Positions 23,907-50,934 of a DNA stretch of 53,045 nt are shown here, in pieces. The DNA is from Terriglobia bacterium (GTDB taxonomy: Bacteria > Acidobacteriota > Terriglobia > UBA7540): the NCBI GenBank assembly GCA_020072655.1, contig JAIQGH010000015.1:1-53045 (forward strand). The letters are read 5' to 3'. A model generated the notes under the pieces. That model was not told the origin of the DNA. It saw only the letters and a list, made by a program, of their open reading frames with translations, and searched no databases. Made by a program: the position numbers and the translations under genes. Positions within the stretch are counted from its first letter, which is position 1; each line of letters begins with the position of its first letter.

Positions 23907-23940
23907 CGGACGACCAGCCGGCTCTCCTCCGCGGAGCTTA

Positions 23941-26253: not shown

Positions 26254-26277
26254 CAGCCGGGGCCGCGCCTTCCGCAA

Positions 26278-27678: not shown

Positions 27679-27786
27679 AATCCTCCAGCTTGGGTGGCAG
27701 CCGCCGGCCTGCTCCGGGCTGCGACGGTGGGAATCAGGAACGAACGTGCGCAATCCAACTTGGCGTGCACGGAGCGGAAGTGTGAG

Positions 27787-29334: not shown

Positions 29335-29441
29335 CGAGGTCCGCGAAGGCTAACGGTATGGAATGCAATCGCGGCAAAGGCTCTTGGCCGATCGGGGAAT
29401 CGAGCAGGCATTATCAGCGGTGTTGCTCCTGAAGGGAAACC

Positions 29442-30632: not shown

Positions 30633-30736
30633 GGTGCCGAATGCGGCTGGGGTGCTGACGGCGAGTTGATTGCCAGGCCGCTCGCCCAAATCTTATGCCA
30701 GAAATGTTCCTAGGGGGCTAATGGAAGGGTCAAGGA

Positions 30737-32182: not shown

Positions 32183-32208
32183 GGGTCTTTCGGCAAAAGG
32201 AAGCTCGT

Positions 32209-32913
32209 ATGACAGGGGTTCGCAGGATGCTCTCCCGGATCAAATTCAGATTATTGGCGCCGGTCCGGCAGCGGGCGTATTGGAACTTGATGGCACTGTA
32301 TGACCCCGTTCATGCGGTCTGCTCCGAGGCCGAGGACGAACGGGATTTGTATGAATCAGGGACGGTCCAAGTCTCGATGATGAAGGATCTCGGACTCCTC
32401 GGCCGGGATAAGGACGCTCTGCACATCGGCTGCGGGATCGGGCGCATTGAATTGAACATCGCCGGCCACGTGCATTTCGCACTCGGGATTGATGTTTCCG
32501 AGAGGATGGTGAAAATCGCGCGGCGCAAAGTGCAGGCTGAGAACGTCGGGTTCGCGCTCGGTTCTGGGAGAGACCTCAGCCCACTCCGAGATCACTCGTT
32601 CGATTTGTGTTACTCTTTTATCGCTTTTCAGCATATGCCCAGGCCGGTAGTGGCCAACTACTTTCAGCAAGTCACGAAGAAACTGAAACCCGGTGGGCGT
32701 TTGTTTTTCCAAATACCTATCGACGAAACGGGCTCTCGCCGTGAGCCGCCTCCGGATCACCCCTACGGGCTCCGCTATTACTCCTCGCGTGAAGTGTCTC
32801 GCCTTTTGGAGCAGGCCGGGTTACGACTACTCGGCCGATATGATGACAAGGGCGAACGCTTTAGTGGAAGTGGAGATGGGTCGGACGCCCAATACTTTCT
32901 TGCCGGAGTCTAA
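32209..32913 (+). CDS. SAM-dependent methyltransferase
   Basis: 234 residues, class I. ALHIGCGIGRIELNIAGHV is the SAM-binding motif I, LGIDVSERMVKIARRKV carries the acidic residue for the ribose, LRDHSFDLCYSFIAFQHMP is motif III, and VTKKLKPGGRLFFQIP is the typical post-motif. There is no membrane helix. By position between the polymerase and two glycosyltransferases, O-methylation of a sugar or of the chain end is likely; end-capping methylation controls chain length in some O-antigen systems, but nothing in the sequence shows which applies. ATG 32209 has AAAGGAAG upstream. Confidence 0.8.
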   Translation: MTGVRRMLSRIKFRLLAPVRQRAYWNLMALYDPVHAVCSEAEDERDLYESGTVQVSMMKDLGLLGRDKDALHIGCGIGRIELNIAGHVHFALGIDVSERMVKIARRKVQAENVGFALGSGRDLSPLRDHSFDLCYSFIAFQHMPRPVVANYFQQVTKKLKPGGRLFFQIPIDETGSRREPPPDHPYGLRYYSSREVSRLLEQAGLRLLGRYDDKGERFSGSGDGSDAQYFLAGV

Positions 32914-33053
32914 TTGCTTGATGCTGTGCTTTACTGATCTATTTTATTATCCGCTTGGCTACAGCCCGCCCTGCCAACCGCTATCGCGGTCAAGCAAGCG
33001 GCTGACGGTACCCTCTGGACGGCGCGGCTAGGTCAGCCTGAGAATCTCCCCCC

Positions 33054-34193
33054 ATGCGGGTTGGCATCGACGCACACATTCTGACAGGGGACCGAAGGGG
33101 GATGGGGCTCTATGCCTTGCGGTTGGTGGAGGGCTTACCCGCGGTCGATCGGGAGAACACTTACATTGTGTATGGTCCGGCGAAGCAGCTATCTTCAGTG
33201 TGCGGCAAGCCGAATTTCCTTCTCCGCCCCACGCCGTCCCTTCCCTCTCCGATCTGGGAGCAGTGTGTGCTCCCGCTGTGGGCATCCAGGGACCGTCTGG
33301 ATCTTCTTCACTGTCCAGCGAACACAGCGCCTCTCCGTTTGCCCAGGCAGGTCAAGTTGGTTCTGACCTTGCATGACGTAATGTTCTTGCTGCCGCCTGC
33401 ACTTATCCCTGGCGTCGGCACATGGCGCCAGCGTATCGGAAGGAACTACCGCAGGATGGTGGTTCCTCGCGTCGCGGCCCGGGCCGATCGCATATTAACC
33501 GTTTCGGATTGTTCCAGATCGGATATTTTGAAGTATATCCGAGTTGATCCGTCGAAAATTCGGGTGATCTACGAGGGTGTAGGCATGAATTCAGATCCAG
33601 CCTCCGACGGCGCTGGGATGCCCGAAAGTTTAGCGAGAATAGGCGCCGGAACGAATTTCATTCTGGCGTTAGGTGGATATGATCCGCGCAAGAATACGGC
33701 AGCCGTGATCCAGAGTTATGCCTCGCTTCGCCGGAGCCGAGCCATCAGCGAGAAACTGGTGGTCGTAGGCCTGCCGGGCTGGGAATCTTCCCCGTTTTAC
33801 CGGACCGTTTGCCAGTTGGGATTGGCCGAGGATGTGGTTCTTACTGATTACGTAACGGACGGAGTCTTACGATGGCTCTATCGGTCGGCGCGCTGCTTCT
33901 TGTACCCTTCGCTTTACGAGGGATTTGGATTCCCCCCTCTGGAAGCGATGGCATCCGGTACGCCGGTGGTCACGTCTCGCGTGGCGTCCGTCCCCGAGGT
34001 GGTCGGGGACAGCGCCTTGCTGGTTGATCCGACTTCGCAGCAAGCGATCCAAGAGGCGCTGCTGCAAGTTCTCAGTGATGATGCCCTGCGAGGGAGTTTG
34101 ATTGAGCGAGGTTGTGTTCGAGCAGCCAGCTTTCGCTGGGAGTCTACGGTGGAACAGACGCTGGCGGTTTACAGAGAGCTGCTCGGAAACTAA
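33054..34193 (+). CDS. GT4-family glycosyltransferase
   Basis: 379 residues, GT-B fold. [20 protein letters not shown] opens the acceptor domain; HCPANTAPL and [12 protein letters not shown] are conserved in mannosyl/rhamnosyltransferases of this type. [20 protein letters not shown] starts the donor domain, and the EX7E motif is in [19 protein letters not shown]. Its stop at 34193 is followed after 17 bases by another GT4. The gene resembles the 29442-30632 transferase, so duplication within the operon is probable. Acceptor and donor are not deducible; rhamnose donors made by gmd/rmd or the Rml enzymes are candidates. Confidence 0.85.
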
Positions 34194-34210
34194 TACCAGC
34201 GCAGAAAGTG

Positions 34211-37400
<3,190 letters not shown>

Positions 37401-37476
37401 CAGCCTAGGTGGCCGGCCTGGGCCGTGGGCAGACATGCCTGTGGCATTAGGGTCACCGAGCTGACGAGGAAACGGT

Positions 37477-38325
37477 ATGAACGAACGGTCAACAATGAAG
37501 GGCGTGATTCTCGCTGGGGGGCTGGGAACGCGCCTCCTGCCGCTGACACGTGTGACGAACAAGCACCTGTTGCCCGTTTACGACAAGCCGATGGTCTTCT
37601 ATCCGATCCAAACGCTGGTAGACGCGGGGATGAGAGACATTTTGCTTGTGACGGGAGGGCAGGATGCCGGCGATTTTCTGCGTCTACTGGGCGACGGAAA
37701 AGACTTCGGCCTGAAGCATATCAACTACACGTACCAGGAAGGGGAAGGCGGAATTGCCGATGCGCTGCGCTTGGCGGAACATTTTGCGGACAAGCAGAAG
37801 ATCTGCGTTGTGCTGGGCGACAACCTGATTGAGACCAACATCCTGGCGGCTCGCGAGAGATTCGAAAAGCAGGAGCGCGGCGCCCATGTCATCCTCAAAG
37901 AGGTGTCCGACCCTGAGCGGTTCGGCGTTCCTGTTTTTGACAGCGACCGAATCATCCGCATCGAAGAAAAGCCGAAGCAGCCGAAATCGCGTTACGCGGT
38001 GACCGGGATTTACATGTACGATGGCACGGTTTTTGACCGCATCAAGAAGTTGAAGCCTTCCGCCAGGGGAGAATTCGAGATTACTGATGTCAACAACCAG
38101 TATCTGGAGGAGGGTACCCTGACCTACAGTATCCTGGACGGCTGGTGGACGGACGCCGGGACGTTCGAGTCTCTCCTGCGCGCCACGAATCTGGTCGCGC
38201 AAGGCGGTGCCAACAAACTGGGCTCCTTGCCTGCGAAGGCCGACACCCTCCCCGCAGCCACATCGAAGGGTTTGCGGGTGAGAACGCCGCGCAATCAGAA
38301 GTCAGGAGGGGGCCCTTCGATCTGA
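37477..38325 (+). CDS. rmlA: Glucose-1-phosphate thymidylyltransferase (RmlA-like)
   Basis: 282 residues. The nucleotidyltransferase signature GVILAGGLGTRLLPLT is at residues 8-23, then KHLLPVYDKPMVFYPI, GEGGIADALRLAEHF, the metal-binding VVLGDN, and the sugar-site segment GEFEITDVNNQYLEEG with GWWTDAGTFESL. It makes dTDP-glucose, the first step toward dTDP-L-rhamnose. It has a short RmlA core plus a ~30-residue basic extension (SKGLRVRTPRNQK) absent from most relatives. Start ATG 37477 has GAGGAAA upstream; ATG 37495 would remove six residues. It is the last gene of the plus-strand operon; its pathway partners rmlB and rmlD lie at 46232-48115, and no rmlC is present. Confidence 0.88.
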   Translation: MNERSTMKGVILAGGLGTRLLPLTRVTNKHLLPVYDKPMVFYPIQTLVDAGMRDILLVTGGQDAGDFLRLLGDGKDFGLKHINYTYQEGEGGIADALRLAEHFADKQKICVVLGDNLIETNILAARERFEKQERGAHVILKEVSDPERFGVPVFDSDRIIRIEEKPKQPKSRYAVTGIYMYDGTVFDRIKKLKPSARGEFEITDVNNQYLEEGTLTYSILDGWWTDAGTFESLLRATNLVAQGGANKLGSLPAKADTLPAATSKGLRVRTPRNQKSGGGPSI

Positions 38326-38480: not shown

Positions 38481-39254
38481 TTATCGGGTCGGGCTTACCG
38501 TTCCACCGCCGCCGCCCCCCCCTCCACCTGCCAGTGCCGCCGCGGCCCCAGCTAGGCCGCCGCCCGCTACCGCCGCTACGACGGCAACCGAGGCTCCGGG
38601 GGACATCGTACCGATATGCCAGGGAGGCTTGGGCGGAGGCGCCGACACGGGTGGACTGGGTTGGTCGGGCGCCGGCCTGCTCTCCTCCTTTTCCTGGCCT
38701 GGAGTCGCGGGGACGCCCACTGCCGCGGCTGAGAGGGAGGCATACTTGCCTTCTTGAAGCTCGTACCGCAGGCCAGAAGCTTTTTCCGTAATCAGCACAT
38801 TCCCAAATCTCGCCGCCACTGTGGTCGATCGGTCAGGAAGCAGCGCCACCAGGTAGAGGGATTTCCCGCTCTCTGTGGGCTCGACGCGGTACTTCGGCGT
38901 TTCGACGCGAAGGGCGGCGCGTTCCTGCTTCAGAGTGATCACCGTCCCAGAGTCAAGATTGGCGACCAGGTGCCCCGCCGTATTCCGGAATCGCACTTGG
39001 GTTTCCTCACCTACGGCGGTGCGAACGCTGCCGGCGAAGTCCACGACCGCCCGGCCATCCTTCTCGGTGCGCACGAGGTCGTTGTCCAGCAGCGTGCCTT
39101 CAGCCGGCAGGGGAACGTCGCCCACCGAAGCTTTTGAGCAAACAATAACGTGGCCGAGCACGGGGGCCCCGCCCGGCAAGGCCATTCCTCCTCCCACGGC
39201 AAGTTGCATGGCCAGCACCGTTGAAATGATGACCTTTCCAATCGCTCTTGGCAT
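38481..39254 (-). CDS. FecR-domain protein with polyglycine C-terminus
   Basis: 257 residues from ATG 39254, with GGAGG seven bases upstream; the longer open frame is not coding. N-terminal signal/anchor (IGKVIISTVLAMQLAVGGGM), then a FecR-like beta domain about 35-160: GTLLDNDLVRTEKDGRAVVD, VRTAVGEETQVRFRN, then HLVANLDSGTVI. A Pro/Ala linker (RPAPDQPSPPVSAPPPK) and a hydrophobic Gly/Ala segment VAVVAAVAGGGLAGAAAA follow. The tail is nine glycines in a row followed by TVSPTR. The glycine tract is encoded partly by a run of eight G. The protein is probably exported, with its C-terminal segment in or near a membrane. Whether the SPTR end is a sorting signal is unknown. Confidence 0.7.
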   Translation of the reverse strand: MPRAIGKVIISTVLAMQLAVGGGMALPGGAPVLGHVIVCSKASVGDVPLPAEGTLLDNDLVRTEKDGRAVVDFAGSVRTAVGEETQVRFRNTAGHLVANLDSGTVITLKQERAALRVETPKYRVEPTESGKSLYLVALLPDRSTTVAARFGNVLITEKASGLRYELQEGKYASLSAAAVGVPATPGQEKEESRPAPDQPSPPVSAPPPKPPWHIGTMSPGASVAVVAAVAGGGLAGAAAALAGGGGGGGGGTVSPTR

Positions 39255-39360
39255 GGTGCCTCCTACAGTGAATCCTCGATAATGCCCCCGCCAAGCGAAG
39301 CTTGCGCAGCGTGATTCCCCGCGGCCTGGGGCATCAACTGGGATCCGCAACGCATTCCGC

Positions 39361-40672
39361 TTATTGCACTCCGCGTGATGACCTTTCCCCAGCAGGCCAT
39401 GCCTCCCGAGTACTGGCTGATGAACAGCGGGAAGCGACTGGCTGGGTGGCAATCGCCGCGCAAACCGCGAACCACGCGGCATTGGCAGGTATATGAAGAT
39501 TGAAATCACCCACACTATGAACGAGAAGCCCGCAGCACCCGGCAGCCGCGCCCAACTGGATCCAACCGACCTCGTTCGCCAGTCGTTCGCCAAGCCGACC
39601 GAATGCCAGGCGGGAAAACATGGCGAGCGCCGCTGCGATCAGGATCCCCCCCACCGCTCCCGTTTCCGCAAGCGCTTCGGCATAGTCGTTGTGGGCGTGA
39701 TCCCACAGCAAATCCGTGGCAAAACTTTGATACCGGGGATAGGCAACCGCAAAACTCCCCAGCCCAACGCCCATCCAGGGATGATCCGCAATGATGCGGA
39801 TCGAATCACGACTCACGAGCCATCGCTCCGCGAAGGTTGCTTCGGGGTGGGTGGAGATCTCGGCCACAGTCGCCAGTCGTTTCGCCACCTGGCCCGGATC
39901 GATTAGGAAGAACAATGCCGCCGAGGCCGCCCCCCCTAGCACAATCGGCGCCCACAGGGAGAGGGCTTTTCCGCGGGGCCGACCCCGGGCGAGGATCGCG
40001 CCCAGGATCACGGTCTCAGCGAGCAGGGCGAGGAAGCCGCCTCTCGACCCGGAAAGCCGCCGCAATCGGGATCAGCATCTCCATCAGGCCGGGGTAATGA
40101 TTGCGGTTCGCGTAAGGGCCGAACGGGGACATCGAAGCCGTTTGGACTTCCCAATAAATCAGCCCCCCGCTTGAGAAGTACTGGATGATGGCGAGCACGG
40201 ATAACGCGAACATGAATACGGTGACCACTGCCACGAATCGTCGCCAGGCTGACTTGGTGGCTTCGCTGAAAACCTGCACCGCCGCGAAGAACAGCAGAAC
40301 ATCTGTCGCCAACTTAATGAGGGCCTCTCGCGACGAAATCCTGTCCATGTTGTGGCCCGAGTAGAATTGAACCGCCGCCAGAGTAAGGAAGAAGGTGCAG
40401 GGCAAATAAAGCGGAGACCACGCGATCTTCACACGACGGCCTTTGACCTGTTGCCTTCCCCAAAGAATCAGCAAAACGACGGCAAGCACCGCCAACCCGC
40501 CCCACGCCCAGGGCAGCACTCCGCCGAGAGGCAGCGGAGCAGCCAGAAGACCGGCCAACAGAACGACTCGCACAGAGGTACTATTCCCTGGGTTAACTCG
40601 AGCCGCTTGAATCCCGGCTGGAAGCTCGTGACGAATTTCAATTGTGTTTAGAGCGCTTGTCATTGCATGCAA
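39361..40672 (-). pseudogene. O-antigen ligase family gene, frameshifted with internal deletion
   Basis: Two overlapping frames make one gene. The first (40672 down to about 40040) starts MHAMTSALNTIEIRHELPAG, has five to six membrane helices and reaches YANRNHYPGLMEMLIPIAAA before ending at TGA. The second continues with SGSRGGFLALLAETVILGAI, DHAHNDYAEALAETGAVGGI and HSVGDFNLHIPANAAW, ending at 39361. In the intact relative at 48197-49588 the two parts are joined by more sequence, so a deletion plus frame change near 40040-40060 has broken the gene. The periplasmic HxxNDY loop and the helices otherwise look like a ligase/polymerase of the WaaL type. It overlaps the TPR gene by 13 bases. Confidence 0.8.
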
Positions 40673-42066
40673 ACCTGGCGTGTCGAATCCATTCCGCTGT
40701 GCGGCCCTGTGACGACCAGGGAAACAGCGTCAAGCCAGAATCGTCCGGAGATTTCCATCGGGAATACGCGGCTCCGCGCACGCCACACGGCAAGCCGGAC
40801 CAGGCGGGTGTCACGCCCAGCGGAGAACGTCAACCCGACGGGGTGCCAGTCGGTTGTGCCAAGCACCGGCGGGGTTGAGATATTCAGGCGTTCCGGTGAC
40901 TCGGCATCGACAATCCTCAGGCGTGGGCCGCTGTCAGAAGTAATGCCTTCGGACCGGACGAAGGCCTCAAGCCGGTATTCGCGGCACGGCTCGACCGGAA
41001 CCAACTGATAAAGAATTTCATATTCCTCGTTGTGCTTTACGGTGAAGTCGACTCGAGCCGATTTCGCGCCATGGAACGCTGCGGGCGCCTGAGAATCCGT
41101 GACAACGAAAGGCATCTGCGTGAGGCGCCAATCGAAACCCGCGTTGAGCGGAGCTTGCTCAAGGTCCCCATTAAAGACTGCATTGTCGGGACTAGGCGAG
41201 GTAGGACGCGCGATAACCTGCCATTTCAGCAGGTCCCTCCAGACTGAAATCGCCTCATTCACGCGGTTACCTGCAATCAGTCCGTCGATATAAGGCTGCA
41301 CGGTGGGAAACGTGATTTTGGTTTTTGACGCCTTCGATTCGAATTGTCGCCACATTTTGAAAGCGTCATCGTATTCGCCGCACCGGCGGAGGAAGTCAAC
41401 ATAGGCCAGCACCAGCCCCGGCGAAGCATCGAGCGGCATGACATGTTCTGAAACCAGGCGAAAATCACCCGCAGCCCGGAGGCAAAGCCGAAAGACGGGT
41501 TCGGAACGGGTTGGGCTCAGTTCGAGCACGCGTCGAAAATGGTTCCATGCGGCCTCGTTTTGCCCGGCACGCAAGTAGAAGTTCCCGGCTCTCCACCAAT
41601 AGTCGGGGCTCATGGGGCGCCGTTCGAGGGCGTGGTGGAAGGCGTCCTGCGCTGCGCGGGTTTCTCCCCTGCTCTCCAGGGCGGCAGCCACTCCCAGCCA
41701 GTATGGGCCGCTGTTCGGACTCAACTCGGCAGCCTTGCGCAGATGTTCGATCGCCATTGCCGAATCTGCTTTCTCCAAAGAAAACAACTGCAGGACCCCG
41801 AGCCGGAAGTGCAGCGCAGGGTGAGATGGGTCGAGTCCAATGGCTCTTACAAGCCATAGGCTGTTTTCGGAATTAGCAAGCGTTTCTGCGGCTGCGGCTT
41901 TTCCACCAATGTAGAGCAGCGGCAGGCCCGCGAGCGCTAGCGCCGCCAGGAAGACGCACGCATCAATCTTTGTCTTCAGCTCAAACTCTATGCCGGCTGG
42001 TGAGAACACTCGAATGAGGCGGCGCCTGGCAGCTGACGAAAACTCTTTTACAGTCTCGAACTTCAC
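40660..42066 (-). CDS. Membrane-anchored TPR protein with jelly-roll C-terminus
   Basis: 468 residues. A basic N-terminus and a single helix at about 35-53 (ACVFLAALALAGLPLLYIGG) anchor it in the inner membrane. Tetratricopeptide repeats run from about 65 to 200 (DPSHPALHFRLGVLQLFSL, AELSPNSGPYWLGVAAALES, RPMSPDYWWRAGNFYLRAG). From about 302 a beta-sandwich of carbohydrate-binding type begins: NGDLEQAPLNAGFDWRL, ITSDSGPRLRI, WLDAVSL. The soluble parts should face the periplasm. It overlaps the broken O-antigen ligase by 13 bases and follows the Wzc-like gene. The paralogue at 49630-50934 also neighbours a ligase, so a supporting role in ligation or polymerisation is plausible, but it is inference. 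Confidence 0.75.
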   Translation of the reverse strand: MKFETVKEFSSAARRRLIRVFSPAGIEFELKTKIDACVFLAALALAGLPLLYIGGKAAAAETLANSENSLWLVRAIGLDPSHPALHFRLGVLQLFSLEKADSAMAIEHLRKAAELSPNSGPYWLGVAAALESRGETRAAQDAFHHALERRPMSPDYWWRAGNFYLRAGQNEAAWNHFRRVLELSPTRSEPVFRLCLRAAGDFRLVSEHVMPLDASPGLVLAYVDFLRRCGEYDDAFKMWRQFESKASKTKITFPTVQPYIDGLIAGNRVNEAISVWRDLLKWQVIARPTSPSPDNAVFNGDLEQAPLNAGFDWRLTQMPFVVTDSQAPAAFHGAKSARVDFTVKHNEEYEILYQLVPVEPCREYRLEAFVRSEGITSDSGPRLRIVDAESPERLNISTPPVLGTTDWHPVGLTFSAGRDTRLVRLAVWRARSRVFPMEISGRFWLDAVSLVVTGPHSGMDSTRQVCMQ

Positions 42067-42105
42067 AAAGATATCTCGTGCTCGGCAGGTTTGGCCGCGC
42101 CGTGG

Positions 42106-44397
42106 CTATATTTGAGGGTGCGCACCATTGTTCCCCCCGCCATTCGACGGTGGGACCAGCGCCGAAACCTCGTCTTCCTCGTAGTGTTCGTAGTACCCCG
42201 AATCGTAGGAACCGTAATAGTAGGAGTCTGTGTTGCGAGAGTTAGCACGGTTCAGAACCACGCCCATGATTTTCGCGCCCGCACTTTCCAGTGTCTTGTG
42301 GGCGCGGGTAAGGGCGGTGCGGGTCGTAATCCCGAGTTGAGCGACCATAATCGTGGCGTCAACGAGCGTCGAGAGAATCGTTGCATCCGTCACCAGCAGG
42401 GATGGAGGGGAATCCACGATGACGTGGTCGAATCTGCGCCGCAAGCGGCGCAGCAACTCCTCCATACAGGACGAGGAAAGCAAGTCGGCGGGGTTGGGAG
42501 GGCGCGGGCCGGCGGCCAAAACGGACAGGTTGGGCAGCCCCTCGACTTGAGAAAGTGATTCGTCGAGGCTGCTGGTGCCAGTCAGAACACTGCTCAGGCC
42601 CTTGTCCCCTGTCAAGCCCAGCGGGCGGGCGATGCCTGGCTTGCGCAAATCTGCATCCACCAGCAGCACGCGGGCGCCGCGCTGGGCCAGCGCGAAGGTA
42701 AGATTCAAAGCGGTGCAGGTCTTGCCTTCTGCGGGCTGCGGACTGGTGACGAGGAGCACCTGCGGCGGGCGGGGCGCCATCGACAGCAGTACGGCGGTGC
42801 GAAGTGAGCGATAACACTCCGCCACCAGCGAAGTGGGCTGGTGTAACACGGCCAATTCCACGTGCCCGTTTGGCGAAGGCTTCGATCCATTCTGTTTCAA
42901 GCTCCGGGCTGGGCGAGTGCCGTTTAAGGGAGCCTCGGGTATGATCGCGAGCGCCGGGCATGCCGTGAGCCTTTCCACGTCGTCGGCACTCTTCACCGAG
43001 GTGTCAAGCTCCTCTTGCATGAACACCAGCGCGATCCCCAGAATCAGTCCGGCGATCAGTCCGACAATGATGTTCAAGAGCTTCTTGGGGCGGGCGGGAA
43101 TCGAGGGCGGCAAGGCTGGATCCACAATGTGGATGTTCGTGGCCCGCAGGCCGGAGGACACCGTCGCATCCTTCAGCCGCTGCAACAGGCTTTCGTAGAG
43201 TTGCTGATTGGTTTCGAATTCGCGCTTGAGGATATTGTGTTGGATCAAGAGCTGATTGAGTTTGCCGACTTCCGCCTTTTCCGCAGTCACAGCCTCTTCC
43301 AGTAATCTCTGCCGACCCTGTGCGGCCGTGTAATCGTCGCAGATTCTGCTGACCACCCGCTTCCGCTCGCGATCGATCAGGGATTGCATTTCGTTCACCT
43401 GATCGCGCAGTCGTACAACTTTGGGGAAGTTAGGCCCGTACTGGCCCAGGGCATCAACGTACCCGGACTTGAGATCAGCCTGCTTTTCTTCCAGCCGCTG
43501 CAGGAGTTGGTTCTGGGCAAGCAAAGCCGCCTGGTTCTCGTTGGTGCGGACCAGTTCGTAAAGAGATTCCTTCTCCAGGCGGTCGCTCTGGGCAACGGTC
43601 AGATCGCGCGTAAGGTCCGCCAGCCTCTGCTCCGCCACATTTTGCTTGTCGCCGACATTGACAATCGACGATTGCCGCTCATAATCGACCAGAGCCTGCT
43701 GCGATTCTTCGACTTTGGCCTTCAGCTCGTCCAGTTGCTGTTCCATCCAGCCAGACACCTGCCGGGTGGCGTCGTACTTTTTCCGGAAGTTATACTCGAT
43801 GTAATTGTTGATCAGATTATTCACGACCTGCGCCGCGAGCTGTGAATCGGTGCTCTCGAAGCTCACTTCGATGAGGCGACTGCGGGCCACGCGGTTGACC
43901 GTTAAATCACCGTCGAAAGCTTTGATCTGGTTGGTCTCGAGTGCGAGGCGAGGATCACCGCTTTTGCGGTCCGGGGGATGTACATTGCGCGAGAACGCCA
44001 GATTATCTCCCAGCCGAAGCTGCTGGATCGTGCGCCAGGCCAGTTGATCGCTCTGGATGACCTTGACCTGTGTTTCGACGAACAGTTCATCGGTAGGAAG
44101 GGTTCGGTCGAAATCACTGAGCGACTGGATGGTGGGGGTCTCGGTTTCGATCTCGACGCGCCCTACTGCCCGGTAAACGGGCTCCATCTTGAACGAGATG
44201 ACCGTGACGAGCGTCGTGACCACGATGAGCACGGTCAGCACTGGCCCGCGGCGCTTGCGAAGAACATTCCAGTAAGCTCGCAGGTAGGCGTAGCCATCCG
44301 ACCTCTCAGGTTCGATCGCAACCGCCGCACTGCTCCTGTACGTCGGCGCTAAGGGGTCACGAGGTTCGATAGGCACGATTTCTGAGTTGTCAGACAT
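42106..44397 (-). CDS. Polysaccharide co-polymerase and tyrosine autokinase (Wzc-like), second copy
   Basis: 763 residues, same architecture as the 23941-26253 protein. First membrane helix near residues 55-70 (GPVLTVLIVVTTLVTVI), Wzz domain, coiled coil to about 430, second helix after PARPKKLLNIIVGLIAGLIL. Kinase motifs: Walker A QPAEGKTC (about 555-562), Walker A' LLVDADLRKP, Walker B VIVDSPPSLL. The C-terminal tail is tyrosine-rich (TDSYYYGSYDSGYYEHY) followed by an acidic and asparagine-rich end. All residues needed for activity are present, so it should phosphorylate its own tail. It lies between the Wza-like gene (45 bases upstream) and the TPR gene and forms a second export unit. Confidence 0.93.
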   Translation of the reverse strand: MSDNSEIVPIEPRDPLAPTYRSSAAVAIEPERSDGYAYLRAYWNVLRKRRGPVLTVLIVVTTLVTVISFKMEPVYRAVGRVEIETETPTIQSLSDFDRTLPTDELFVETQVKVIQSDQLAWRTIQQLRLGDNLAFSRNVHPPDRKSGDPRLALETNQIKAFDGDLTVNRVARSRLIEVSFESTDSQLAAQVVNNLINNYIEYNFRKKYDATRQVSGWMEQQLDELKAKVEESQQALVDYERQSSIVNVGDKQNVAEQRLADLTRDLTVAQSDRLEKESLYELVRTNENQAALLAQNQLLQRLEEKQADLKSGYVDALGQYGPNFPKVVRLRDQVNEMQSLIDRERKRVVSRICDDYTAAQGRQRLLEEAVTAEKAEVGKLNQLLIQHNILKREFETNQQLYESLLQRLKDATVSSGLRATNIHIVDPALPPSIPARPKKLLNIIVGLIAGLILGIALVFMQEELDTSVKSADDVERLTACPALAIIPEAPLNGTRPARSLKQNGSKPSPNGHVELAVLHQPTSLVAECYRSLRTAVLLSMAPRPPQVLLVTSPQPAEGKTCTALNLTFALAQRGARVLLVDADLRKPGIARPLGLTGDKGLSSVLTGTSSLDESLSQVEGLPNLSVLAAGPRPPNPADLLSSSCMEELLRRLRRRFDHVIVDSPPSLLVTDATILSTLVDATIMVAQLGITTRTALTRAHKTLESAGAKIMGVVLNRANSRNTDSYYYGSYDSGYYEHYEEDEVSALVPPSNGGGNNGAHPQI

Positions 44398-44442
44398 GCG
44401 TTCAGCTCGCTAACTTCTGCCGGCACGACTCGTCCTGGCAGA

Positions 44443-45471
44443 CTAACGGTGCCAGATGATGATTCCGGTGGTTGCCTGCACCGCCGCTTCCGCGAGGCGG
44501 CTCAACGCCTTCTGGCCCGGGCTGTCGGGAACGAAAAGAATATCGCCTGGCTGCATCGAGGGGTCGAGCGCGCGGCGCGCGAGAACCTTTTTCAGATCTA
44601 CGGGAATCTCTTCGTGGCCTTCCGGAGAACGCGGATTCTTTCGAATGATGACCGCCTTGCCGCGAATCGCCGTGGACTTCAGATCCTGCGCCAGCGCCAC
44701 GGCCTTGAGCACCGTGATGTCTTCATGATCATCGCTCATCGGAAACCCGCCGGGGCGGTTCACCGCGCCGACTACATAGATGACTCCGGCACGCTGGACC
44801 GTGACCCGGTCGCCGGGGTAGATCTCCACATTGAGCGCGGGGTCACCGGTTTCCATCAGACCCTTCAGGTCCACGGCCGTGGTCCGAAGCGCGGGATCCG
44901 CTGTTTGCTCGCCTCCCGCAGAAGGCTGCAACAGGAGCCGGCGCAGGGCAATCTCCCCTCGCGTGATGATGACGGTGTTTCCCGCTTCCGGTGCCAAGCC
45001 TTCCGCCTGAGAAAGAACATCCAGCAGAGTGGTCCGACCGAAAACCTGGTAGATTTGTGGTTTCTTGACAGCGCCCGTGACCGCGACGGAGTGCAATCGT
45101 GATTCCTTCACTTCCACATTGACCTGCGGGTTGCTCAGTATTCCCGCGCTGCGCAGTTCTGTGGCGATAGCTTCTGAAAGCTGCACGGGCGTCATGCCCG
45201 CTGCCTCGATGGGCTTCGGCAGCAGTGGGAACACAATGAATCCACTCGGGCTGACTCTATACGGGCGCGACATCTGGGGAACGTCGAAAACAACAATTTC
45301 CAGCAGATCATCGGGTGTGATCAAGAAGTCGGAGTTGGCCGAAACGGCATTTGCGCCTGTATTGGAGAGAGTGCCGCCGGTAGGCTTCACGGCTGCGCCT
45401 TGGTCTGAGGCAGCATGGAGATTCAGTGCCAAAATCACTCCGGCAATCCAAAACATGCGTCGCATACTCAT
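44443..45471 (-). CDS. Polysaccharide export protein (Wza-like), second copy
   Basis: 342 residues from ATG 45471 (MSMRRMFWIAGVILALNLHA), which gives a signal peptide of about 20 residues; the longer open frame is low-complexity arginine-rich readthrough and is not coding. SDFLITPDDLLEIVVFDVPQ is the export domain; the SLBB repeats are HSVAVTGAVKKPQIYQVFGR and VIYVVGAVNRPGGFPMSDDH. The C-terminus AAVQATTGIIIWHR matches the end of the 22773-23906 protein in pattern (A-A-x-x-A-T, then GIIIW and a basic end). It is paired with the Wzc-like gene 45 bases downstream. No lipobox cysteine is visible. It follows the PilZ gene by 113 bases. Confidence 0.9.
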   Translation of the reverse strand: MSMRRMFWIAGVILALNLHAASDQGAAVKPTGGTLSNTGANAVSANSDFLITPDDLLEIVVFDVPQMSRPYRVSPSGFIVFPLLPKPIEAAGMTPVQLSEAIATELRSAGILSNPQVNVEVKESRLHSVAVTGAVKKPQIYQVFGRTTLLDVLSQAEGLAPEAGNTVIITRGEIALRRLLLQPSAGGEQTADPALRTTAVDLKGLMETGDPALNVEIYPGDRVTVQRAGVIYVVGAVNRPGGFPMSDDHEDITVLKAVALAQDLKSTAIRGKAVIIRKNPRSPEGHEEIPVDLKKVLARRALDPSMQPGDILFVPDSPGQKALSRLAEAAVQATTGIIIWHR

Positions 45472-45584
45472 CCTGCCATTCGAATGTCCATGGCCATTGC
45501 GCTGGAGAGGGTCAGCCGAGCGCCGACCCGTTCCTCCGCCCAGCCGCGGCAAATATCTCTTGGCGTACATTCTCCGCCTTGTGC

Positions 45585-45983
45585 TTAAGAAGCGCCTCCG
45601 CCTCCGTTGCCGTTTCTCGAAGGCGATGCCGTCGGCCGCAGAGTGAGAAGCTCTCCCATATCTTGCCGGAGAATCCGGCCACTGCGCCGGAACTGCACCG
45701 CCACCTCGTAAACGGGCTGGTCGTCCGCCCGTTGCACGATGCCCTCGAACTGCACGGTCGTAACCTTCTGCTTCGCGTCGCGGAAGTGGGCGTGCAGCAC
45801 GACCCGTGAACCTTCTGCCAGATGTTGTCCCACTTGCAGCCTGGCGCCGCCCATTCCGATGTCGAGCAAGTGACCGGGAACCAGTGACCCGACGCGTCCA
45901 CGGCTGGATATCTTGAGCATAACGGGACAACCAATCCTTAACCGCTTCCACTCCCGCTTTTCATCAGCTTTTGAAGAACCCAT
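45585..45983 (-). CDS. PilZ-domain protein
   Basis: 132 residues from ATG 45983 (MGSSKADEKREWKRLRIGCP); the open frame further upstream lacks coding character. The c-di-GMP-binding PilZ pattern is visible: REWKR supplies RxxxR and DIGMGG the D/NxSxxG position, with Gly in place of Ser. Remaining strands VQFEGIVQRADDQPVYEVAV and the basic, glycine-rich tail fit a single PilZ beta barrel. It should bind c-di-GMP and relay it to a partner. It is first in a minus-strand unit with the second Wza/Wzc pair, which suggests control of export by c-di-GMP. Affinity may be altered by the Ser to Gly change. Confidence 0.75.
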   Translation of the reverse strand: MGSSKADEKREWKRLRIGCPVMLKISSRGRVGSLVPGHLLDIGMGGARLQVGQHLAEGSRVVLHAHFRDAKQKVTTVQFEGIVQRADDQPVYEVAVQFRRSGRILRQDMGELLTLRPTASPSRNGNGGGGAS

Positions 45984-46110
45984 TAGTTCGACTCGCAGTC
46001 TTGGATAAGCCGAAATTCTGCGGGACGGTGGCGGTCGCTGACAATACGCTGTTGGTATGAATCCCCGGCAACCGTTCGGAGGAGGCGGGTGAGAAAGACC
46101 GGGTGGGAAA

Positions 46111-46120
46111 GGGTTAACCC
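46111..46120. promoter_or_regulatory. Perfect 10-base palindrome in the divergent region
   Basis: GGGTTAACCC, fully symmetrical, midway between the divergent PilZ and rmlB genes. Could be an operator; too short to be certain. Confidence 0.25.
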
Positions 46121-46156
46121 ATTCCGCCGATGTCGGCCAATCCTGGCAACTACTTG

Positions 46157-46186
46157 TTGAAATGCGAACCAACGGATGTATATTAT
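46157..46186 (+). promoter_or_regulatory. Candidate sigma-70 promoter for rmlB
   Basis: TTGAAA (46157-46162) and, after 16 bases, TATATT (46179-46184), or after 18 bases TATTAT (46181-46186). Both spacings are acceptable and the hexamers are close to consensus. The start codon TTG 46232 is about 40 bases downstream of the expected transcript start, with CAGGA between. Confidence 0.45.
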
Positions 46187-46231
46187 CCGGCGATAAGCAG
46201 TCTGATGGATTTACACAGGACGTGAAAAGTA

Positions 46232-47260
46232 TTGAGGCTTCTCGTCACAGGTGGCGCCGGGTTCATAGGTTCGAACTTCATCCGCTTCCTTTTCCGTCTG
46301 CACCCGGATTACCGGGTTCTCAATCTCGACAAACTGACGTATGCCGGAAACCTCGCGAACCTTTCTGAAGCAGAGACGAGCCCCAATTACTCGTTCCAGA
46401 AAGGTGATATCTGCGATGCCGGGCTCGTCGAGCGTCTGATGCGGACGGGCATCGATGCGGTAGTGCACTTCGCGGCAGAGAGCCACGTGGATCGCAGCAT
46501 CGCCGGCGCACGGGCATTTATAGAAACCAATGTTCTGGGTACCTACACGCTTCTCGACGCGGCACGGCGCCTAAAGATTCCACGCTTCGTGCACGTTTCC
46601 ACTGACGAGGTCTATGGCAGCATGGCCCCTGGTGAGAGCGCCACAGAACAGACGCCGCTCGCGCCCAATAGCCCTTATGGTTCCAGCAAGGCCGCTTCTG
46701 ACTTGGTTGTCCGCAGCTTCTGGAAGACCTTCCAGTTTCCCGCCATCATTACGCGCGCTTCCAACAATTACGGGCCGCATCAGTTCCCTGAGAAATTGAT
46801 CCCGCTGATGATTACGAACGCATTGGAAGGGAAGAAGCTTCCCGTTTACGGTGATGGGATGAACGAGCGGGACTGGATTTATGTGGAAGACCATTGCCGG
46901 GCGATTGATCGTGTCTTGCACGACGGTCGGCCCGGCGAGATTTACAACATCGGGTCCGGCAAGCCGTCGCCCAATCTGGAGATCGTCCGGCGGCTGTTGC
47001 AGATTCTCGGCAAGTCTGACGATCTCATCGAGTTTGTTGCTGACCGGCCGGGGCACGACCGGCGGTACGCTCTCGCGACGGGGAAAATCACTTCCGAACT
47101 GGGTTGGGAACCGGAAGTGGATCTCGCGACAGGCCTCGTTAAGACCGTCGAGTGGTACCGCGATCATTCTGACTGGGTGCAGAAGGCCAAGAGCGGTGAA
47201 TATCGCGAATACTACGACCGCTTCTATGTGAATCGCGGCACCTCTCTTTCCCAAATCTGA
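46232..47260 (+). CDS. rmlB: dTDP-glucose 4,6-dehydratase
   Basis: 342 residues. NAD-binding MRLLVTGGAGFIGSNFIRFL, VHFAAESHVDRSI, STDEVYGSM, the catalytic YGSSKAASDL (Tyr-x-x-x-Lys), NNYGPHQFPEKLIPLM and GDGMNERDWIYVEDH are all typical of RmlB. It converts dTDP-glucose to dTDP-4-keto-6-deoxyglucose. The start is TTG, supported by CAGGA and by the glycine loop lying at residues 7-13, as in all homologues. It is followed six bases later by rmlD. It should use the dTDP-glucose made by the RmlA at 37477-38325. Confidence 0.95.
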   Translation: MRLLVTGGAGFIGSNFIRFLFRLHPDYRVLNLDKLTYAGNLANLSEAETSPNYSFQKGDICDAGLVERLMRTGIDAVVHFAAESHVDRSIAGARAFIETNVLGTYTLLDAARRLKIPRFVHVSTDEVYGSMAPGESATEQTPLAPNSPYGSSKAASDLVVRSFWKTFQFPAIITRASNNYGPHQFPEKLIPLMITNALEGKKLPVYGDGMNERDWIYVEDHCRAIDRVLHDGRPGEIYNIGSGKPSPNLEIVRRLLQILGKSDDLIEFVADRPGHDRRYALATGKITSELGWEPEVDLATGLVKTVEWYRDHSDWVQKAKSGEYREYYDRFYVNRGTSLSQI

Positions 47261-47266
47261 GGGCCC

Positions 47267-48115
47267 GTGCGGATTCTCTTGACAGGAAACAAAGGCATGC
47301 TCGGGCAGGATTTCACGGCCTGGGCATCTCCGCGCCATGAGATTGTGCCTCTGGATCTTCCGGAAGTGGACATCACCGACGCCGACGCTGTAGGCCGGTA
47401 CGCCGCTAGCGCCAAGCCAGAGGCGGTCATTCATGCCGCCGCCTTCACTGCTGTGGATGAGTGCGAACGGCGGCCGGAAGTCGCCTTCGCGATAAACGCG
47501 GAAGGAACGCGCAACGTCGCGCGGGCTACGCGCCTTGCGGGAATCCCCATGCTTTACATCAGCACAGACTATATTTTCGACGGCGAAAAGCCCGCGCCCT
47601 ACGTCGAAACCGACTCGCCCAACCCCATGGGCGTCTACGGCCGCAGCAAGCTGGAAGGTGAGCGACATGTTCGCGAATTGCTTGAGGCCTACTGGATCGT
47701 CCGCACGTCCTGGCTTTTCGGTCCGTACGGGAAGAACTTCGTCGGCACGATTCTCGAGCGGGCACGAGCCGGCGCGACGCTGCGCGTGGTGAACGATCAG
47801 CTCGGTTCTCCAACCTACACCGTGCATCTGGCCGCCGCGCTTGAACAGATCCTTGCCCGAGGGGAATACGGCGTTTACCACGCCACGAACCAGGGCTCCT
47901 GCTCATGGTTTGAGTTCGCGCAGGCGATCGTGCGCGAAGCGGGAATGGACGAATCCATGGTCGCTCCGATTCCCACGTCGGCTTCCGGCCGGTTGGCGCC
48001 CCGACCGCGGAATTCGCGGCTTGCCAACACGCATCTGGAACAACAGGGGCTGGGACTCCTTCCTCCCTGGCAGGAAGGCTTGCGGTGCTATCTCCTTCGT
48101 GAGCGCAGTGGGTGA
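47267..48115 (+). CDS. rmlD: dTDP-4-dehydrorhamnose reductase
   Basis: 282 residues from GTG 47267. ILLTGNKGMLGQDF is the NADPH loop, DAVIHAAAFTAVDECE and STDYIFDGEKPAPYVE lead to the catalytic YGRSKLEGE, and RTSWLFGPYGKNFVGT and QLGSPTYTVHLA are conserved in RmlD. It reduces the rhamnulose intermediate to dTDP-L-rhamnose, but that substrate needs the 3,5-epimerase RmlC, which is not encoded in the window. The gene is in an rmlBD unit, 81 bases before the ligase gene. Confidence 0.93.
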   Translation: MRILLTGNKGMLGQDFTAWASPRHEIVPLDLPEVDITDADAVGRYAASAKPEAVIHAAAFTAVDECERRPEVAFAINAEGTRNVARATRLAGIPMLYISTDYIFDGEKPAPYVETDSPNPMGVYGRSKLEGERHVRELLEAYWIVRTSWLFGPYGKNFVGTILERARAGATLRVVNDQLGSPTYTVHLAAALEQILARGEYGVYHATNQGSCSWFEFAQAIVREAGMDESMVAPIPTSASGRLAPRPRNSRLANTHLEQQGLGLLPPWQEGLRCYLLRERSG

Positions 48116-48196
48116 TGCTGAGCGGAAGAGGCGCGAGCCAGATTCCCCACGCGCCCTTCGCACCGGACCCTAGACTCTGCACCTAGGACCACGCTG

Positions 48197-49588
48197 ATGA
48201 ACAATCGAATGGAAGTCGTTCTGGCTCTGGTGATCGTCGGCGCCACGCTCGCTTTCGGAGGCGTCCAGGTCATTACCTATTCGCTCATGGAGGTCGTGCT
48301 GTTTGCTCTCGCCCTGACTCTCTTGTGGAAGCAAGCCCAGCGCGGCGAAATCCGTCTAGCCCTTCCGGTCTGGCCGATCCTGTTTGTGCTCCTCGTGGTT
48401 CTGCAAGTTGTCCCGCTGCCCACCGCTCTGGCGGGTCGCCTTTCTCCGGGCCGGCTTGAAGATTTCAAGCTCGCCGGGGCGACCCCTTCTTGGACCACGC
48501 TGAGTGTGTACCCCCATGCGACCCTGGTGACCTTGATGCGCCTGCTCGCCTACCTCTGTGCCTTTGTGCTTGCGGCCTCCGCCTTCGACTTCCGCAAACG
48601 CCGGAGCACTTTGCTGCGTGTCCTCATTCTGCTGGGTTGCTTTGAGGCTGCCTACGGAATCGTGCAGTACGTCACCGGCTGGCAGAAGATCTTTACCTAC
48701 ACGAAGAAGTTCGATTTGGAGGAAGCCACGGGGACCTTCATCAACCGCAACCACTTTGCGGGTTTTCTCGAGCTGGTTCTGCCTTTCGTGCTGGCTTACG
48801 CGTTCTACCACTTCCAGGCGTGGTCACTCCGCCGTTATTCCGGGGAATCGGGCCGGTCGTCAGGGCGCGGTGGACCCGCCCAAGTTCTCTTCTTCGCCTT
48901 CCTCACCGTTTTCCTGGTCGTCGCCGTGATTTTTTCGCGATCCCGCATGGGAATCCTAGTGACGGCCTTCGCCCTCATGGCAGTGGCTCTGCTGGCCCAG
49001 CTGCGCGTGGGGGGCAGAGTTTGGGTGCTGGGGATATTGCTCTTTATCGGGTGCGTGGTGGGATACGGCCTGTGGATCGGGCTAGGTCCGGTGCTGGCGC
49101 GATTTGAGTTGGTGGGCGAGCCGGGCTATCTGCGCATCGAAGGAAGGCTCTCGATCTGGGCGGATGTCTTGCGGCTGATTCGGCAATCTCCTCCGCTGGG
49201 ATTCGGACTCGGAACCTTCGAGGTCGTGTATCGTGGGTACCAGACGGCAACGGTCAACTTCAGTGTCGAGCACGCGCACAATGACTATCTCGAATTTGTC
49301 TCGGACACTGGGATTGTCGGGGCCGTGCTGCTCTTCCTGCCTATTTTCTACCTCTTGGCCAGGATGGTCATTTCCTTCCTGGATGACCCGCGCACCTACC
49401 GGCGCGCCGTGACGCTGGGGTGTATCGGCAGCACTCTGGCGATCCTGCTGCACAGTGTGACGGACTTCAACCTGCAGATTCCCGCCAACGCCCTTGTCTT
49501 CGCTGTGGTTCTTGGCATCGGCTATAAGGTGGCCTGCCTCGACCGGCACGTGGACTCGGACGCGGGGCAGGAGCCAATCGGCCGCTGA
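48197..49588 (+). CDS. O-antigen ligase family protein
   Basis: 463 residues with about 11 membrane helices. The features shared with WaaL-type ligases and polymerases are NRNHFAGFLELVLPFVLAYA, the periplasmic-loop region EHAHNDYLEFVSDTGIVGA and HSVTDFNLQIPANALVFAVV near the end. It is the intact equivalent of the pseudogene at 39361-40672 and shares its HxxNDY loop and the NRNH motif. It should transfer or join lipid-linked glycan in the periplasm. It is preceded by rmlD and is convergent with the second TPR/jelly-roll gene, whose stop lies 41 bases beyond its own. ATG 48197 lies in a run of AT-rich leader with no strong ribosome site. Confidence 0.85.
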   Translation: MNNRMEVVLALVIVGATLAFGGVQVITYSLMEVVLFALALTLLWKQAQRGEIRLALPVWPILFVLLVVLQVVPLPTALAGRLSPGRLEDFKLAGATPSWTTLSVYPHATLVTLMRLLAYLCAFVLAASAFDFRKRRSTLLRVLILLGCFEAAYGIVQYVTGWQKIFTYTKKFDLEEATGTFINRNHFAGFLELVLPFVLAYAFYHFQAWSLRRYSGESGRSSGRGGPAQVLFFAFLTVFLVVAVIFSRSRMGILVTAFALMAVALLAQLRVGGRVWVLGILLFIGCVVGYGLWIGLGPVLARFELVGEPGYLRIEGRLSIWADVLRLIRQSPPLGFGLGTFEVVYRGYQTATVNFSVEHAHNDYLEFVSDTGIVGAVLLFLPIFYLLARMVISFLDDPRTYRRAVTLGCIGSTLAILLHSVTDFNLQIPANALVFAVVLGIGYKVACLDRHVDSDAGQEPIGR

Positions 49589-49629
49589 CGGCATTGCCGG
49601 TTCTGCAAAAAGAGGGGAGCGGGAGAAAC

Positions 49630-50934
49630 CTATCGCGCGCGGGCTACTTCGGTCGGGAGGGGCGTTAAGGAGACGTCGTCCACCCAGACCTTGCCGGCGA
49701 TGAGGTTATCGAGCTTGGTGCTCGGCAGGCGGACGACCCCGACCACGACCAATGCAGTCTTCGGGCCCGTCGAGAAATCCAGGATGACCTGCGACCACCC
49801 GCTGCTCGTGCCCGTCAACGCCTCCGAAAACTTCATGAGTGCGGAGGGGTCGTAGGCGTCGCGGACCTCCAGTCGAGGCCCGCTGTCGGTGGTGATCCCG
49901 TCCGTCTTAAGGAAACCGGTCAGCCGATAGGAGCGCCCCGGGGAAACCCGCACATACTGATAGGCGTTCTGGTAATTCACATTTTCCTTCCCGGAAAACA
50001 CGATCAGCAGGGCGCGGCTGGGGGAATGGAAGTTGCTTCCTTCAAGGCCCGCATAAATGCCTTCGCGCGGGTAGACCCGCCAGTCGAAACCCATGTTCAG
50101 CAGGTCTTCCTCGAAGTCGCCGTTGACGATGAGGTTGTCGGCACGGGGCTGGTAGATGGGTTTGATCAAGCCCTTCTTTTGAAGGTCCTTCCAGACCAGG
50201 GCGGCCTCCTCGGGCAATCGCGCGACGATCAAGCCGTCGAAATAGCCCCCCACACTGCCGGGCGGAAACTTCTCGGGGCTCGCGGCGATCCGCCTCCAGA
50301 CCTCTTCCGCCTCCGGGTACTGCTGTTGGGAGAGCAGGTAGTAGAGGTAGTCCATCTCCGTCCCGACTTTTTCCGGAATCAGCTCGCGCAAAATCTTCGC
50401 CCCATCGTCACTGGCCTTCCAGGCCGTGCTGAAGAGAATCCGGTTGTACTCCCCGCTGCCGGCCAGCACCGTCTTGAAGTGACGGAAGGCCTCATCGACA
50501 TCGCCGTGCAGCAGAAAGAAATTGCCGATGACCCACTGCACGGCGGGCAAGTGGGGGGCCAAGGAATCGGCGCGGCGCAAACTGGCCTCGGCGGCCATGG
50601 AGTTGCCCTGGAAGCCCTGCGCCGCGGAGAGCTCCAGCCAGGGCTGCGGGTCGCGCGGATTCAAGCGTGCGCTGACGAGCAGTTGCGCCATCGCCAGGTC
50701 GGGGTTCATCTCTTCCAGAGAGTATTGTGCCAAGCGGGCGAGGCGCAGATGGTATTCCGAATTGCCGGGATCGAGGCGAACGGCGAGCCGCAGGCTCTTG
50801 ATTGTGGGCCGGCGTGCAAGCTGGTCGGCGATGCACGCCCTCGTCACCCAGACGGAGAGATAGAGGAAGGCCACCAGCCCGGCGAGCACCACCACCCGCC
50901 GGCCCAGGAGACTGTTCAGAGGAAGGTGCGCCAT
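49630..50934 (-). CDS. Membrane-anchored TPR protein with jelly-roll C-terminus, second copy
   Basis: 434 residues. Membrane helix at about 11-29 (RRVVVLAGLVAFLYLSVWV), then tetratricopeptide-like pairs: RLDPGNSEYHLRLARLAQYS, NPRDPQPWLELSAAQG and LAPHLPAVQWVIGNFFLLHG. The C-terminal beta-sandwich from about 265 shares with the 40660-42066 protein NGDFEEDLLNMGFDWRV, GITTDSGPRLEV and WVDDVSL; the two are paralogues. In carbohydrate-binding modules this fold binds glycan, so the protein could hold the nascent polymer at the ligase. Both copies adjoin an O-antigen ligase gene. ATG 50934 has GGAAGG twelve bases before it. Convergent with the intact ligase. Confidence 0.75.
   Translation of the reverse strand: MAHLPLNSLLGRRVVVLAGLVAFLYLSVWVTRACIADQLARRPTIKSLRLAVRLDPGNSEYHLRLARLAQYSLEEMNPDLAMAQLLVSARLNPRDPQPWLELSAAQGFQGNSMAAEASLRRADSLAPHLPAVQWVIGNFFLLHGDVDEAFRHFKTVLAGSGEYNRILFSTAWKASDDGAKILRELIPEKVGTEMDYLYYLLSQQQYPEAEEVWRRIAASPEKFPPGSVGGYFDGLIVARLPEEAALVWKDLQKKGLIKPIYQPRADNLIVNGDFEEDLLNMGFDWRVYPREGIYAGLEGSNFHSPSRALLIVFSGKENVNYQNAYQYVRVSPGRSYRLTGFLKTDGITTDSGPRLEVRDAYDPSALMKFSEALTGTSSGWSQVILDFSTGPKTALVVVGVVRLPSTKLDNLIAGKVWVDDVSLTPLPTEVARAR

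Follow-up and report, generated by a model that had tools for sequence, protein, structure and literature searches.

A TPR protein with a carbohydrate-binding-module-like jelly roll as a probable partner subunit of one branch of Wzy_C enzymes in Acidobacteriota

The Wzy_C enzymes transfer undecaprenyl-linked glycan, acting as O-antigen ligases or as Wzy polymerases, and they also include protein ligases; in the PglL-type O-oligosaccharyltransferase, the Wzy_C enzyme carries an additional C-terminal region in the periplasm (Wzy_C plus Wzy_C_2). It is poorly understood by what means Wzy polymerases and O-antigen ligases keep hold of their chains and determine chain length, and we are aware of no WaaL or Wzy enzyme that requires a separate membrane-anchored subunit made of tetratricopeptide repeats (TPRs) and a carbohydrate-binding module (CBM). 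TPR scaffolds have been described for the synthase-dependent systems, and in the Wzx/Wzy systems polysaccharide co-polymerase (PCP) and outer-membrane polysaccharide export (OPX) partners bridge the periplasm (PMC9384988). Here, we analyse a stretch of 53,045 nucleotides (the window; contig JAIQGH010000015.1 from a Terriglobia bacterium genome of 209 contigs and 4.36 Mb), in which two genes of a family that we call TPRJ, having an N-terminal membrane helix, a TPR region and a C-terminal jelly roll, lie next to Wzy_C genes. We propose TPRJ as a dedicated subunit, on the periplasmic side, of one Wzy_C branch, with the jelly roll holding the glycan. The partnership between TPRJ and the ligase is considered very probable and, judged from sequence, the gripping of the glycan has about an even chance, so the statement as a whole is held with moderate confidence.

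The evidence for the partnership comes from gene order, the ligase tree, fusions and co-occurrence. All the genomes surveyed belong to Acidobacteriota. In a phylum-wide sample 49 TPRJ loci were inspected, and a Wzy_C gene lies within 1 kb of the TPRJ gene in 40 of them, with TPRJ followed by the ligase on one strand in 38, the order reversed in one and the genes convergent in one; the remaining loci comprise four with a Wzy_C gene within 6 kb, two at a contig edge and three orphans. With the 1-10 Wzy_C genes that each genome carries, random placement would yield about one or fewer adjacent loci of the 49. The median gap across 62 adjacent TPRJ-ligase pairs is -3 bp, and thus many of the paired genes overlap. 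Moreover, two of the three orphans are found in genomes (G037 and G132) that also carry an unpaired ligase placed inside the partner group. In a tree of 94 Wzy_C proteins from the genomes of the phylum-wide sample, the 44 TPRJ-linked proteins form a group together with four unlinked ones, and the linked and unlinked labels require 5 changes on the tree versus a mean of 31 when shuffled, with none of 500 shuffles as low; since the deep branches are weakly supported and there are several long rows, the description of the partner ligases as one clade is fair rather than firm.

At least four genes carry both parts in a single open reading frame (ORF), with the ligase first and then the full TPR region and jelly roll (L158, 877 amino acids (aa); L159, 896; L160, 856; L161, 770). 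An extra membrane helix follows the ligase part, as seen by hydropathy in L158-L160 and by eye in L161. On the ligase tree the fusions belong to two distinct lineages, family f22 for L158-L160 and f3 for L161, and they imply that the ligase and TPRJ parts share one function and probably one place. It is noted that in eight other loci of family f22 a large TPR-like protein (~860-1150 aa) is convergent with the TPRJ-ligase pair.

Co-occurrence points in the same direction. The large co-occurrence searches scored few candidates per genome; in them, 67 of 396 genomes have TPRJ at E <= 1e-40, and 64 of these 67 hold a ligase that matches the partner-ligase profile at E <= 1e-40, as do 128 of the 329 TPRJ-negative genomes. 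At E <= 1e-100 such a ligase is present in 54 of the 67 TPRJ-positive versus 2 of the 329 TPRJ-negative genomes, a contrast of scores that is partly circular because the profile was built from TPRJ-linked genes. The original prediction was said to fall if the TPR gene occurred in many genomes without any ligase; a partner-type ligase is found in nearly every TPRJ genome. A search of named genomes with a degenerate DNA pattern gave a single relative locus, in Terriglobia bacterium SRVP_28, and the search for TPRJ outside Acidobacteriota, in a plasmid collection, returned only a TPR-level match in Azospirillum or nothing.

In the window's own family (f1), 35 of the 37 sampled genomes, the window's own included, have a match, and two forms of the locus are present among 36 loci. 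In type 1, to which copy 1 of the window corresponds, TPRJ precedes the ligase on one strand (11 loci), often behind Wza-Wzc; in type 2, the form of copy 2, the two genes converge in 8 loci and TPRJ stands alone in 17. The stand-alone cases mostly have a partner ligase elsewhere in the genome: 17 orthologous ligases, from 17 f1 genomes and located away from any listed TPRJ, form, together with 9 convergent ones, one fully supported clade that includes the intact ligase of the window. Among the f1 genomes checked, a strong partner ligase is missing only in three (G223, G224 and G235), all of which are <90% complete. The dispersed f1 copies sit among unrelated genes, as would be expected if TPRJ were an unrelated envelope protein merely travelling in gene-dense polysaccharide regions. 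We regard this as highly improbable, since the fusions are repeated, the paired genes overlap, the partner ligases cluster and orphans accompany orphan ligases; the fusions already disfavour it. A chance neighbourhood was likewise rejected by adjacency, tree clustering and fusions. The idea of a dedicated helper of the ligase or polymerase, from which the analysis set out, is thus strongly supported by adjacency, co-occurrence, the clustered partner ligases and the fusions.

The anatomy of TPRJ agrees with what had been read from the window beforehand, namely two paralogous TPR proteins with one membrane anchor each and a C-terminal beta-sandwich. The two copies share 34% identity across 414 aa (E 5e-63), hydropathy predicts for each a single membrane helix, close to the N-terminal end (aa 36-54 in copy 1, aa 13-31 in copy 2), and none elsewhere, and TPR models match both. 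An AlphaFold2 (AF2) model of copy 2, made from an alignment of 3 sequences (mean pLDDT 72), has a helix at 9-40, TPR helices at 45-253 and strands at 285-425. In a Foldseek comparison of this model, the TPR part resembles designed TPRs, OGT and PilF, and the end domain resembles two CBMs, the hyaluronan-binding 4d0q and the CBM4 1gui. An exosortase/PEP-CTERM system was rejected because the matches are sub-threshold only, the model TIGR02917 of the TPR protein PrsT giving 24-27 bits versus a cut-off of 312; the likeness of TPRJ to the PrsT of the XrtA/PEP-CTERM system appears at the TPR level only.

For the jelly roll, a profile of 43 such domains matches the CBM70 4d0q (E 8.8e-10) and the CBM4 1gui (E 2.4e-6), and xylanase CBMs as well. 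The Pfam model CBM_4_9 (PF02018) is matched by 30 of the 43, the best at 7e-10, and the window jelly roll alone reaches 13.1 bits, under the cut-off of 25.9. By profile and by model, the jelly roll is real and of CBM type. Seven residues are conserved in at least 90% of the 43 jelly rolls (F13, F22, W24, Y75, W119, R141 and G153 in domain numbering). The GFDWR and GIT-DSGPRL signatures noticed at the outset are present in both window copies; among the 43 relatives, conservation is limited to F.W within GFDWR and to scattered residues of the core, and GIT..GPRL is not kept. Binding of sugar by the jelly roll is what its relatives suggest.

The partner enzymes are members of the Wzy_C family (PF04932), with 62.5 bits for the intact ligase of the window and 76.9 bits for the C-terminal half of the broken one (cut-off 31.7). 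The partner-ligase profile matches the WaaL structure 7tpg at E 7e-20, and R191, R265 and H313 of the 7tpg chain, which we take to be the key residues of WaaL, align with R250, R317 and H361 of the intact window ligase, these being kept in 33, 35 and 35 of 35 partner ligases, respectively. As a small correction to the original prediction, both window Wzy_C genes may be polymerases rather than O-antigen ligases, and the gene context suits a polymerase no less than WaaL sensu stricto, which transfers O-antigen to lipid A-core. The layout is as first described, with one pair co-directional and its ligase broken into two halves in different frames, and the other pair convergent with an intact ligase. 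Relatives align to the broken ligase at residues ~1-203 and from 231 on, with ~28 codons (~80 bp, no multiple of 3) gone at the joint, which may be a true lesion or an error of the 209-contig assembly.

Taking the domain anatomy, the pairing, the fusions and the WaaL-type residues as they are read from the sequences, the following working scheme can be proposed. Both proteins would lie in the inner membrane, with the TPR region and jelly roll in the periplasm and, in the unfused pairs, in direct contact with the ligase; the single TPRJ membrane helix would pack against the membrane bundle of the enzyme, with the TPR superhelix extending across its catalytic loop in the periplasm. The growing or arriving glycan would be held by the CBM-like jelly roll, an arm that would give processivity or present the substrate and that, in operons with Wza-Wzc, would also pass the chain on to the export channel. 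TPRJ would thereby affect chain length or processivity, and the product would be either a polymer or glycan linked to an acceptor.

The genes around TPRJ and the ligase are consistent with such a pathway, with Pfam classes that include flippases, WecA/MraY-like undecaprenyl-phosphate sugar transferases, GT4 glycosyltransferases, sugar-nucleotide enzymes and asparagine-synthase-like proteins, and with Wza and Wzc also as neighbours. The order at copy 1, with Wzc upstream of TPRJ, recurs in eight further loci. As the order Wza-Wzc-TPRJ-Wzy is met in many loci, as the TPR scaffolds AlgK and PgaA are hubs in other polysaccharide export systems (PMC9384988), and as the conserved jelly-roll residues are structural, it could be argued that TPRJ is a structural connector whose TPR arm links Wzc/Wza with the Wzy_C enzyme and whose jelly roll binds protein rather than sugar. 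We judge this unlikely. Wzc lies within 3 kb of only 7 of the 49 phylum-wide TPRJ genes versus a ligase within 1 kb of 40, the fusions join TPRJ to the ligase and not to Wzc, and the homology to CBMs is sufficiently specific to speak for binding of sugar.

The type 2 loci often have no Wza/Wzc neighbour, and this, together with the protein ligases among the Wzy_C enzymes and a weak Wzy_C_2 match (16.7 bits, E 0.008) in a TPR partner of the sister group (L236), would suit a two-part protein O-glycosylation enzyme, in which, in a PglL-like manner, secreted proteins would receive glycan from the ligase while the TPR arm holds out the acceptor protein. By contrast, a domain scan for Wzy_C_2 (PF11846) gave no match in the window ligase, in the TPRJ proteins or in the fusions L158 and L159, the sole match to the exosortase-linked O-glycosylation ligase model TIGR03097 reached 20.8 bits versus a cut-off of 188.1, and many loci lie inside capsule/exopolysaccharide operons, so that we consider this explanation quite improbable. 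A PglL-type enzyme in the strict sense was rejected because Wzy_C_2 is missing.

The preferred reading, a dedicated TPRJ subunit holding glycan for its Wzy_C enzyme, can be placed in a wider setting. Among 20 ligases inspected from TPRJ-negative genomes, 13 have a TPR region beside (10) or fused to them (3, with the fused L235 weak). The TPR neighbours inspected have one N-terminal membrane helix, L247 showing a second hydrophobic stretch too, and the TPR partners have no CBM-like jelly roll; some TPR partners of sister-group ligases (L241, L242, L247 and L231) end in another apparently beta-rich domain with a motif like FFNGRVVWEEYL, for which no Pfam match was found in the three scanned. The TPRJ-negative genomes G022 and G048, with a ligase at E <= 1e-100, each have a plain TPR neighbour (L239 and L240). 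These observations give a theme, a Wzy_C enzyme plus a membrane-anchored periplasmic TPR arm, and it appears to be a general one, in one or two chains and with variable end domains. Tentatively, and with some doubt, it may be extended to a whole branch of the Wzy/WaaL family in Acidobacteriota being two-component enzymes, fused or split, in which the sugar-binding-type end domain of the TPR arm grips the nascent chain and sets processivity or length, varying by lineage to suit the polymer.

Several points weigh against the dedicated glycan-holding subunit. The conserved residues of the jelly roll look like the fold core, so a sugar-binding site is a prediction from homology, and no conserved binding cleft was identified among them. 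One of the two window ligases is broken; 17 of the 36 f1 loci have no ligase within ~4 kb; many sister ligases have no jelly-roll partner; and the score contrast at E <= 1e-100 is open to the circularity mentioned above. The mirror-tree correlation (r 0.85, permutation maximum 0.13) is uncorrected for shared ancestry.

The features of the window are collected in Table 1.

Table 1. Genes of the two TPRJ-ligase pairs and their surroundings in the window
Feature	Coordinates	Strand	Remarks
C-terminal part of the broken Wzy_C gene	39361-40065	(-)	holds Wzy_C domain and HAHND motif
N-terminal part of the same broken partner Wzy_C ligase/polymerase (type 1)	40016-40672	(-)	45-55% identity to residues ~1-215 of intact relatives
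TPRJ copy 1	40660-42066	(-)	one N-terminal membrane helix, TPR domain, CBM-like jelly roll at 40663-41199
Wzc-like polysaccharide co-polymerase, tyrosine-kinase-type domain	42106-44397	(-)	upstream of TPRJ copy 1
Wza-like outer-membrane polysaccharide export protein	44443-45951	(-)	true start probably well inside ORF
rmlB, dTDP-glucose 4,6-dehydratase	46232-47260	(+)	TIGR01181; same strand as, and upstream of, intact ligase
rmlD, dTDP-4-dehydrorhamnose reductase	47267-48115	(+)	TIGR01214
Intact partner Wzy_C ligase/polymerase (type 2)	48197-49588	(+)	WaaL-type residues R250, R317, H361
TPRJ copy 2	49630-50934	(-)	convergent with intact ligase; jelly roll at 49633-50151

The setting of copy 1 reaches Wza-Wzc (42106-45951) and that of copy 2 reaches rmlBD (46232-48115), with 41 bp between the intact ligase and the stop of copy 2. 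A PilZ-domain protein (45585-46172, minus strand) lies just upstream of the long Wza ORF and possibly provides c-di-GMP control of the Wza-Wzc cluster; its overlap with that ORF is a sign that the Wza start lies further inside. Directly after the broken ligase there is a weak FecR-like protein (38481-39593, minus strand) with a glycine-rich stretch at its end. Note also that a second, separate polysaccharide cluster (22773-38325, plus strand) has its own Wza, Wzc, sugar transferase, flippase and Wzy-like polymerase, as well as glycosyltransferase, epimerase/dehydratase and nucleotidyltransferase genes, and no TPRJ; its Wzy (30737-32182) is a different one, PF14296, scoring at the Pfam cut-off.

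Finally, the proposed pair can be compared with the described systems. We found no TPR partner of WaaL, Wzy or PglL in the open-access literature (subscription papers lay outside the search), in keeping with the original suggestion of an undescribed component, and this is apparently a known enzyme family with an undescribed accessory subunit. If so, a dedicated subunit of glycan-binding type, sometimes fused to its enzyme, would give a direct handle on chain length, and two gene families spread through a major soil phylum would be named. With WaaL (7tpg/7tpj) the partner enzyme shares the Wzy_C domain and the aligned R/R/H residues, and from PglL it differs in that Wzy_C_2, a part of PglL, is unmatched in the window pair and the scanned fusions. 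The Wzy_C enzymes with a fused TPR region (L121, L229, L230 and L027) resemble the TPRJ fusions in that the TPR region follows the enzyme in one chain, and differ in having no jelly roll; in L121 and in L027, the latter from the window's own genome, an extra membrane helix before the TPR region is seen by eye. The C-terminal domain of TPRJ is like CBM4/9/22 and CBM70 (4d0q, 1gui) by profile and fold, but those modules come from secreted glycoside hydrolases or lyases, whereas in TPRJ a TPR region holds the domain next to a biosynthetic enzyme of the membrane. As in AlgK, BcsC, PelB and PgaA, of which PgaA reportedly binds its polymer through the TPR (PMC9384988), a periplasmic TPR superhelix would serve a polysaccharide assembly machine; those proteins, however, are outer-membrane associated and synthase-dependent, whereas TPRJ is predicted to be anchored in the inner membrane, to end in a CBM-like jelly roll and to have a Wzy_C enzyme as its partner.

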